Of a DNA stretch of 64,000 bases, positions 29,490 to 33,670 are shown piece after piece. Made by a program: the position numbers and the translations under genes. The DNA lies in the NCBI RefSeq assembly GCF_024494725.1, contig NZ_JANHDK010000003.1, positions 62,001 to 126,000 on the forward strand, read 5' to 3'. The notes below the pieces were generated by a model. The model saw only the letters and a list, made by a program, of their open reading frames with translations. It was not told the origin of the DNA and made no database searches. Positions within the stretch are counted from its first letter, which is position 1. Each line of letters starts with the position of its first letter. Origin of the DNA: Haloplanus ruber. Its GTDB lineage: Archaea > Halobacteriota > Halobacteria > Halobacteriales > Haloferacaceae.

Positions 29490-30581
29490 CTAGTACGCGT
29501 CGGCGTCGACCAGTCGTTGCGCGATACGCTGGGCGCCGACCGCCGCCGACAGCGACGGTTCGTCGGGCGCCACCGCCTCGACGTCCCGCTGAAGTTCCTC
29601 GCTTAGGCGCTCCTCGAACTCCGCGACGATGCCCGGAATGCAGGCCATCCCCCCCGTCAGCACGATGGGGCGATCCAGCGCCAACTGGTAGACCTTGATG
29701 TGGTCGTTGGCGAGTTCGGGCAGGAAGGCGTTGGCCACCTCCTCGACGGCCTCGTCGACGTACTCGTCGACGGCGTCCATGACGCTGCGCTCGATGGTGA
29801 ACTCGTGGGAGCCGCCACCGGGCTGCTGGATTACGTCCGTGAACGGCTCGAAGTCGACGAAGTCGGCGTGTTCCTCCTTGTACTCTCGGGCGGTTGTGGT
29901 GTCGATGTTGACCCGCCCTTGGGTCTCTTCCTCGACGTAGTTGGCGACCCGCCGGTCCACCTCGTTGCCGGTGACCGCACCCGTGGTGAACGGAACGAGT
30001 TGCTCGCCGCGACGGTATGCCGAGGCTTCGAGGTTTGTCGATCCCAGGTTCACCGTGACGAAGATGTCCTCGACGGCCTCCAAGTCGCCGCCGAGAGCCG
30101 GGACCGCCCCGCAGAGCGACTCGGGGTAGCTCCGGATCAGCGCCTCGCCGATGGTGCTCCCCTCGATGACCGATTCGAGGTTCGCCAACCCCTGCTCGTT
30201 GTCAATCGTCGGGATGGCGTACACCACCGCGCTATCGGTGGGCACGTCGTTGGCCTCGATGACCTTCTCGAAGAATGTCGCCGTCAACTCCGCCCGGGAC
30301 TCGTCCTCTGGCAGCCCCGAGCGAAGGGTGTACTGCACGCGGTCGGGGTACTCCCGCGCTGCCTCCTCGCCGTAGAGAACGCGCTCCTCGCCCGTAATGG
30401 CGTCCTCGTAGGTCGCGAGGCAAGTGAGCGTCTTGACCGTCCGCAGGCCGTCGCCGTCAGGGATGGCAATCACCGTCCGGGTGCTTCCGAGTTTCACGCC
30501 GATTGGCGCGGGTTCGTCTTCGCTTGCTGTCGGCTCCTCCGTCGGCTCCTCGTCCCCGTCCTCGTTCTCGGAGTCACTCAT
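29490..30581 (-). CDS. Haloarchaeal actin homologue (salactin/volactin type)
   Basis: Predicted ATP-dependent cytoskeletal filament protein of 363 aa. After an acidic disordered N-terminus (about 1-27), the actin/Hsp70 fold is marked by phosphate-1 loop [14 protein letters not shown], phosphate-2 loop [15 protein letters not shown] (about 175-190) and the adenosine motif [13 protein letters not shown] (about 315-327). This matches the haloarchaeal actin group that includes the dynamically unstable salactin. It is not an FtsA or Hsp70, since it lacks their extra domains. The preceding same-strand gene 67 bp upstream encodes an archaellum D/E-domain protein, so both may be co-expressed. Subfamily name is a judgement from sequence resemblance. 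Confidence 0.82.
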
Positions 30582-30648
30582 GTGGCCGGCGCTACACGCG
30601 GGCGCGATAAATAAGCACTCCCCGATTCCTCGGGTCGCCGTTCGGGGT

Positions 30649-31152
30649 TCACCGACCGGCGAGCGAGGCCAGGCGCGCGACGTAGTGGAGGCTCACCCGG
30701 TGGTCGTCGGCATCGAGGTCGTTGTCGGCGTTCGCCCGCGGGTCGTCGATGCCCGTCAGGTAGGCGTCAAGCGCCTCGGCGGCGTCGGCACCGAGCCACC
30801 CGACGGACTCGTAGAAGGCCACGGCGTCGTTCACCGACTCGCGGCCCGCCTGCAACACGAGAAACTCCAACCACTCGAAGATCAGCGCCTCGGCGACCAG
30901 CGACGCCGGGAGCGCGGGGAGGTAGGGCCGTTCCATCGACTCGCCTTGGGCGTCCATCGCGGCCAGATCACGGGTTAACGACGCTTCGAACGCGGCGTCG
31001 GCCGCCGAGCGGTCGTCCTCGTCCTCGCTCTCGGCGTCGGCAGCCCCGTCTGGCCGCTCCGACCCCACGTCCGCGTCCGTCCGGTCCAGCGCCGACCCGC
31101 CGCTGGCCGTCCGGAGTTCGTCGAGGTCGTAGTTCCGCGGGTCGATGGCCAT
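30649..31152 (-). CDS. ArlD/E (FlaD/E)-domain protein
   Basis: The 167-aa protein begins MAIDPRNYDLDELR, the N-terminal motif shared by haloarchaeal archaellum accessory proteins. An acidic linker follows. The C-terminal domain (about 75-140) fits the FlaD/FlaE family: YLPALPASLVAEALIFEWL, then a YESVGWLGADAAEALDAYLTG block. ArlD/E proteins bridge the archaellum motor to the polar chemosensory apparatus. No archaellum operon is present in the window; the neighbour is an actin homologue. The ATG at 31152 is preferred over one 15 bp upstream because it starts the conserved motif. Confidence 0.82.
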   Translation of the reverse strand: MAIDPRNYDLDELRTASGGSALDRTDADVGSERPDGAADAESEDEDDRSAADAAFEASLTRDLAAMDAQGESMERPYLPALPASLVAEALIFEWLEFLVLQAGRESVNDAVAFYESVGWLGADAAEALDAYLTGIDDPRANADNDLDADDHRVSLHYVARLASLAGR

Positions 31153-31220
31153 CGAACGACGAGACATACGGGCGCCTGCGAATTAAAGCTTCCCGACCGT
31201 GTGACGCCCGTCGGACGGCC

Positions 31221-32393: not shown

Positions 32394-32473
32394 CGTCGGT
32401 CGGTCGACCCCGATCCGCTTCGTTCTTGCGTTCGTCGGGAGGGTTTTATCGCCTCGGGGACATGGGTCTGGGT

Positions 32474-33670
32474 ATGGATCCCGGGGACGTCGAGTACGAA
32501 CCGGTCAGCGTGAAGGCCGTCCTCGTCGAGATGAAGGACACGGCCGAACTCCTCATCGACCTCGCGTATTCGGCGGTTCTCCACGGGAGCGACGAGGTCG
32601 CCGCGGAGGTACTGGAACTCGAAGAGCGGATGGACGTGTTACAGCTTCAGGCGCGGATGAGCCTCCTGATGGCCGCCCGAAGCCCGGAAGATGCGGAGGC
32701 GCTGGCGCCCGTTCTCGGGGTCGTCGGCGCCGCCGAGAAGATCAGCGACGCCGCGGGCGACATCGCAAAGGTGGTGCTCGAGGACATCGGCGTCCCCGAG
32801 GCGATGCGGACGGCCATCCCGGCGGCCGTCGAGACGGTCGTCCGCGGGGAGATTGCCGCCGACTCCGCGTACGCCGGCACCTCGCTCGGCGACTGCAACC
32901 TCGAGACGGACACCGGCGTCCGGGTCATCGCCATCCGCCGTGCCGGCGACTGGATCGTCAACCCCGACCGGGACACGGTGCTCTCGGCCGCCGACGTGGT
33001 CCTTCTCCGGGGCACCGAGACGGCGCTCGCACCGGTATACGAGTCCGTCACCGGCGACGCCTACGTCCCACCCGAACCGGTCGACTCCTCTATCGACGAC
33101 CTCGACCGCGCGGTCGACTCCATCGTGTTGATGAAAAACATGAGCGAGTTGGCGGTCGACCTGGCCTACGGATCGGTGTTGTTCGACAGCGAGGGCGTCG
33201 CCGCGGAGGTGGTCGAACTCGAAGCCGAGGTCGACGCGCTGAAATCCCGGTTCGAGGCGTGGGTGTTGCGGGCCGCCGGCCGGGTCGAGGACCCCATCAC
33301 GCTCCGGGGACTGGTCCACCTCGCGAGCGCGACGGAGGTGATCAGCGACGCCGCCCTGGAGATCAGCGAGGGGGTGCTCCGCGGACTCGACACCCATCCG
33401 GTCGTCGCCGCCGCCGTCGAGGAATCCGACGAGGTGATCGTCCGCGCCGGCGTGGCCGCCGACGGGCGACTCGCCGACGCCTCACTGGGCGACCTGCAGG
33501 TCAAAACGGAGACGGGGATGCGCGTCATCGCCGTCCGCCGCGGTGACGGGGACTGGGTCGTCTCGCCCGGCCCCGAGACGACCGTCCACCCCGACGACGT
33601 CCTCATCGCGAAGGGGACCCGCGCCGGCGCCGACCGACTCGCCGACCTGGCGGGCGACGCCGAACCTTAG
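32474..33670 (+). CDS. Duplicated PhoU-RCK_C regulatory protein
   Basis: The 398-aa soluble protein is made of two tandem copies of a PhoU-like helical domain followed by an RCK C-terminal (TrkA-C) ligand-binding domain: PhoU about 10-110, RCK_C about 120-200, PhoU about 215-315, RCK_C about 320-395. The copies align directly (ELLIDLAYSAVLHGSDEVAAEVLELE versus ELAVDLAYGSVLFDSEGVAAEVVELE; IAADSAYAGTSLGD versus VAADGRLADASLGD). RCK_C domains bind nucleotides or ions to gate K+ or other cation transporters, so a role as transporter regulator is likely, but no channel gene adjoins. ATG at 32474 is chosen because the conserved repeat begins there. Confidence 0.88.
   Translation: MDPGDVEYEPVSVKAVLVEMKDTAELLIDLAYSAVLHGSDEVAAEVLELEERMDVLQLQARMSLLMAARSPEDAEALAPVLGVVGAAEKISDAAGDIAKVVLEDIGVPEAMRTAIPAAVETVVRGEIAADSAYAGTSLGDCNLETDTGVRVIAIRRAGDWIVNPDRDTVLSAADVVLLRGTETALAPVYESVTGDAYVPPEPVDSSIDDLDRAVDSIVLMKNMSELAVDLAYGSVLFDSEGVAAEVVELEAEVDALKSRFEAWVLRAAGRVEDPITLRGLVHLASATEVISDAALEISEGVLRGLDTHPVVAAAVEESDEVIVRAGVAADGRLADASLGDLQVKTETGMRVIAVRRGDGDWVVSPGPETTVHPDDVLIAKGTRAGADRLADLAGDAEP

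Follow-up and report, generated by a model that had tools for sequence, protein, structure and literature searches.

The closest known relative of the actin described here is salactin (VNG0153C) of Halobacterium salinarum, the only species in which dynamically unstable salactin filaments have been shown; a salactin-GFP fusion forms filaments that extend from foci at the cell poles and then collapse back onto them (Zheng et al. 2023, PMC10746226). Its deletion causes no motility defect, and a DNA-distribution defect is seen in low phosphate (PMC10746226). The original paper offered no usable gene context for the polar tether or the cargo of salactin; synteny of the gene was reported to be poor, and the paper named no partner. 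A second described system is ArlD (FlaD) of Haloferax volcanii, a protein of ~160 aa with a single C-terminal D/E domain and the N-terminal motif P..YDxxELR, which is required for archaella and swimming (Li et al. 2019, PMC6509185). FlaD/ArlD-GFP forms unipolar or bipolar foci, small foci sometimes travel from pole to pole, and the localisation of FlaD/ArlD does not depend on CheW, nor that of CheW on FlaD/ArlD (PMC6509185). The contacts of ArlD with ArlCE, ArlH and CheF are known in addition to its polar focus (PMC6509185; review PMC8978795), ArlCDE are thought to build a cytosolic ring facing the polar cap (PMC8978795), and ArlD serves as a polar motor marker (PMC11588486).

The window analysed here, a stretch of 64,000 nucleotides from Haloplanus ruber, contains the actin gene that an earlier note on this DNA had proposed; it is real, and runs from an ATG at 30581 to a stop at 29490 (29490..30581, minus strand). 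The 363 aa product matches curated salactin models over its full length, with 622 bits (E 2.3e-187, cut-off 27) against PF25229 in a Pfam profile search and 600 bits (cut-off 400) against the NCBIfam “salactin” equivalog NF053533. Of the earlier label, “salactin/volactin-like”, the first half is supported by these matches, and volactin identity is ruled out by a PF25216 score of 22 bits, which is below the cut-off of 35. The nearest named relative is a Haloplanus MAG, whose salactin is 89% identical. The AlphaFold model has an actin fold (pLDDT 88.8, with residues 1-20 below 50), and the window protein and VNG0153C belong to the same family over the full domain, with an acidic disordered N-terminal tail and a predicted MreB/MamK-like fold in common. 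In the published tree, the closest actin subfamily to salactin is MamK of magnetotactic bacteria. The nearest solved structures found by a Foldseek search with the model are likewise MreB/Mbl and MamK (MamK 5ljv, TM 0.73/0.81). MamK works with magnetosome proteins, and we know of no D/E-domain partner for it.

Directly upstream of salactin lies the gene for a 167 aa archaellum D/E-domain protein (30649..31152, minus strand; ATG at 31152, stop at 30649), and the shared strand and the 67 bp gap (30582..30648) are exactly as the earlier note had them. The PF04659 match (83 bits, E 1.5e-23, cut-off 21) covers residues 79-167 of the longer ORF, and the protein consists of the N-terminal motif MAIDPRNYDLDELR, an acidic low-confidence linker and the C-terminal Arch_fla_DE domain, with no FlaC domain detected in the profile search. 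The start at 31152, at MAIDPRNYDLDELR, is favoured by the conserved N-terminus; an alternative start at 31167 is also open (172 aa). The predicted model is helical, with a pLDDT of 79 overall and above 90 in the DE domain. A structure search with it returned no fold neighbour (best E 9.4), and the predicted fold therefore gave no functional clue; a sequence search likewise retrieved no matching solved structure.

The motif P..YDxxELR, in which P, Y, D, E, L and R are invariant over 50 aligned rows, is common to the short D/E proteins: it is present in the Halobacterium-type arl-cluster ArlD and the salactin-linked proteins inspected, and in none of the ArlCE proteins examined. A tree of 119 D/E domains (99 columns) separates the short D/E proteins from the ArlCE domains, with a weakly supported central branch (37/90). 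The short side holds the Halobacterium-type arl-cluster ArlD together with nearly all salactin-linked proteins, and a few long-branched or ORF-extended rows are placed elsewhere. Together with synteny, the motif and the tree position indicate that the protein, which the earlier note treated as an orphan, is not an unrelated orphan and belongs to the ArlD type, a single-domain subunit of the archaellum switch complex that is placed with salactin instead of in the arl cluster. The window protein shares the domain layout, motif and approximate length of H. volcanii ArlD, whereas the Haloferax-type salactin-linked gene lies inside an archaellum/chemotaxis island and the window gene lies outside the arl cluster, adjoining salactin.

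The arl cluster of the window genome (C1:892000-911999) encodes archaellins, DUF7500, CheC, CheD, ArlCE, an archaellin-like ArlG-type gene, ArlH, ArlI, ArlJ and CheF, and contains no ArlD; the ArlD-salactin pair is on another contig. A tblastn search of the whole window with 15 archaellum and chemotaxis proteins found only the D/E gene, in agreement with the earlier observation that archaellum genes are absent nearby. The pair is flanked by unrelated genes, namely Pth2 and TruD downstream and an MFS transporter and a PhoU/TrkA-C protein upstream. The last of these (32426-33670, plus strand) has two PhoU and two TrkA-C domains, is divergent from the MFS gene and is possibly a transport regulator. 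Upstream of arlD, the TATA-like sequence CTTTAATT (in 31153..31200, minus strand) is a candidate promoter of the pair. The TATA-like TTATTTA, located in the intergenic gap ~30 nt upstream of the salactin ATG, may additionally provide salactin with a leaderless promoter of its own, and similar boxes precede salactin in other Haloplanus-like, Halorhabdus, Natronomonas and Halorientalis loci. The window genome also has a third D/E gene (L180:9370-9858, minus strand; C2:347384), which carries the ArlD motif as PSEYDASELR and has a 7TM histidine kinase as its neighbour on one side and an MCP transducer on the other. A third D/E gene of Haloferax (L170:16339-16890), without the motif, also adjoins a 7TM histidine kinase.

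The pairing is not restricted to this genome. In a sample of 292 haloarchaeal genomes, 140 have salactin above the cut-off, and their salactin neighbourhoods were searched for D/E domains. A D/E gene lies within 700 bp of 122 of the 152 salactin matches and, in 118, directly upstream on the same strand, against ~0.05 such pairings expected by chance in a simple estimate that ignores relatedness. A few of the 152 are split matches of one gene, so that counts by genome are safer: a D/E gene adjoins salactin in ~120 of the 140 genomes and in 25 of 28 genera from three families, nearly always directly upstream. An independent named set shows the pairing in 73 of 80 loci; of the seven loci without it, two lie at contig edges. 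Apart from antisense shadows of both genes, no other neighbour family of salactin is common to more than six genera. The spacing elsewhere is often hundreds of bases, the reading frames overlap by 4 bp in Halorubrum, and no fusion of the two genes was noticed. The pair is thus an actin and an archaellum D/E protein that are conserved together across haloarchaea.

The exceptions are instructive. In Halobacterium-type genomes the link is broken and ArlD lies beside ArlCE in the archaellum cluster; the poor synteny reported among close relatives of H. salinarum (PMC10746226) concerns this very lineage. In Halosimplex-type genomes (L239:438-5917), ArlD and salactin share a strand but are separated by ~5 kb, in which genes for a TrmB regulator and an MMPL transporter occupy the opposite strand. 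A same-strand distance of about 5-6 kb is also seen in genus g64 (L058 with L162, L051 with L164), and in Halovenus and a relative (L054, L069) a stretch of 11 kb holds two salactin genes together with three long frames that contain D/E domains. Genus g30 (L166, L168, L181) has no salactin and a short ArlD-type gene outside the archaellum cluster, adjoined by PAS/GAF histidine kinases in L166 and L168. In two Halobellus genomes (G218, G288), the arl locus contains a short D/E gene that is not accompanied by salactin. Conversely, salactin has no D/E neighbour at the outgroup methanogen loci examined, several of these genomes being incomplete. From these three cases it follows that neither protein strictly needs the other.

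The gene pairing and the published polar localisations point to a simple mechanism in which ArlD would hold or nucleate salactin. We assign a probability of about one half to the reading that ArlD anchors polar salactin filaments or is positioned by them. The suggestion of the earlier note, a filament and its polar adaptor, is therefore a reasonable hypothesis in that the pair is conserved and both orthologues are published at the poles, with the amendment that the D/E protein is no orphan. An old adjacency that has persisted by chance, or was transferred as a block, would require no functional meaning. Related genomes are not independent, and block transfer of the pair is compatible with the correlated distances of its members: across 18 genomes, the partial correlation of salactin and ArlD distances given ArlCE is 0.60 (permutation p 0.0005), and that of ArlD and ArlCE given salactin is -0.04. 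Once the genomes in which the pair lies in the arl locus, five in number, are removed, ArlD and ArlCE distances also correlate (0.43). The distances are in line with the anchoring mechanism, but linked inheritance could be the cause of the salactin-ArlD correlation in this small test, which is confounded by linkage. However, the adjacency survives in three families with scrambled neighbourhoods, often across gaps of hundreds of bases, and in a few genomes it has been re-established as a divergent or downstream arrangement, which makes such neutral persistence very improbable.

For some genera, an archaellum/chemotaxis island is the place of origin or residence of the pair. The order DUF7500-CheC-CheD-ArlD-salactin is found in Haloferax mucosum, Halobellus and genus g16, in an island with archaellins and ArlCE, and in Haloferax CheY precedes CheC. 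In H. volcanii, “ArlD/HVO_1202” is reported as one transcription unit that is up together with other archaellum units in a csmR mutant; HVO_1202 is neither identified as salactin nor discussed in that study (PMC13286277, 2026). Since the gene order is the same as in H. mucosum (CheY/C/D, ArlD, next gene), HVO_1202 is probably salactin, and the unit would represent the same two-gene arrangement as the pair in the window. The island position in three genera and the response of this unit to CsmR may instead reflect shared regulation only, in which salactin and ArlD are co-expressed in the motile rod-shaped state without contact and salactin has a separate job, such as chromosome partitioning. The deletion phenotype of salactin, which concerns DNA distribution and not motility, is also in line with this explanation. 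Outside the island, however, the pair persists while its other neighbours change and the remaining arl cluster is elsewhere, which is not what island regulation predicts. Additionally, one genome, discussed below, retains both genes after loss of the motor and CheA. Co-expression without contact is accordingly considered possible but doubtful.

That genome, the complete single-contig congener G289, has no ArlJ and no ArlCE-type D/E gene and has kept the ArlD-salactin pair (L013, L151, L296, L328). It has one archaellin-like gene and a single CheW-domain match beside a small transducer, which indicates the absence of CheA. The pair is under purifying selection in G289, with dN/dS of 0.16-0.29 versus 0.13-0.25 in relatives, and its retention after motor loss makes a role in the motor alone less likely. 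In genus g67, archaellin and ArlJ are absent, whereas salactins, a divergent D/E gene and a transducer-CheW-CheY-CheA-CheC cluster are retained. Several salactin copies are present per genome in this genus (L053, L076, L100, L126, L137, L150), with up to four intact-looking copies and one apparently broken copy in G182.

The salactin-linked D/E gene as the only one kept in G289, and the co-occurrence of salactin and a D/E gene without an archaellum in g67, would also fit a paralogue of ArlD that is reserved for salactin in some lineages, the genus of the window among them (for example as an adaptor at the pole for DNA partitioning), with a different D/E protein acting in the motor. Three D/E genes are present in six of the seven genomes of this genus, and the third gene of the window genome has the ArlD motif. 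This third gene, however, lies outside the arl cluster between a histidine kinase and a transducer, and in most genera (Haloarcula, Halorubrum and others) the salactin-linked gene is the sole short D/E gene beside ArlCE. Moreover, the ArlD of the H. volcanii ArlD/HVO_1202 unit is the very protein needed for archaella and swimming (PMC6509185), and a paralogue reserved for salactin therefore appears rather unlikely.

Returning to ArlD as the anchor or cargo of polar salactin, the distribution of the actin was compared with those of chemotaxis and archaellum genes. Salactin genomes almost always have CheW (139/140) and archaellin (138/140). Within the family of the window, salactin is present in 80 of 87 CheW-bearing genomes and in none of 18 CheW-less genomes, and Fisher values for these co-occurrences are only indicative because the genomes are related. 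Eight of the 18 have archaellins, which indicates that the association of salactin with chemotaxis is no looser than that with the filament. Joint loss of archaellin, CheW, D/E and salactin is seen in single genomes of Halorubrum, Halobellus and g10 (G205, G014, G183). An ancestral chemotaxis link of all salactins is unsupported, as CheW is found in only 7 of 18 outgroup salactin genomes, several of which are incomplete.

In the proposed mechanism, ArlD would be located at the pole, either in the motor base or in the polar cap, and salactin filaments may attach to it or nucleate on it. The filaments would in turn position, partition or renew polar ArlD-bearing complexes during cell growth and division. 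The normal motility of the H. salinarum mutant argues against an essential swimming role of salactin in that lineage, in which the gene link is broken, and the DNA-distribution phenotype and G289 leave room for a role beyond motility. The mutual independence of FlaD/ArlD and CheW localisation in H. volcanii also speaks against the mechanism. A broader but unlikely version casts ArlD as the receptor at the pole for a spindle-like salactin system. The partitioning of polar machines or chromosomes would then also be organised from the archaellum base or polar cap, and the pair would be able to work without an archaellum, as in G289 and g67.

ArlD is the first concrete candidate for a protein that ties salactin to the pole. 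As this conserved partner is a standard polar marker, and an arlD deletion and an ArlD-GFP strain of H. volcanii exist, the question is testable in that organism. If the anchoring reading is true, the archaeal cytoskeleton would be tied to the placement of the motility apparatus, which would explain why ArlD foci arise at new poles and move between poles.
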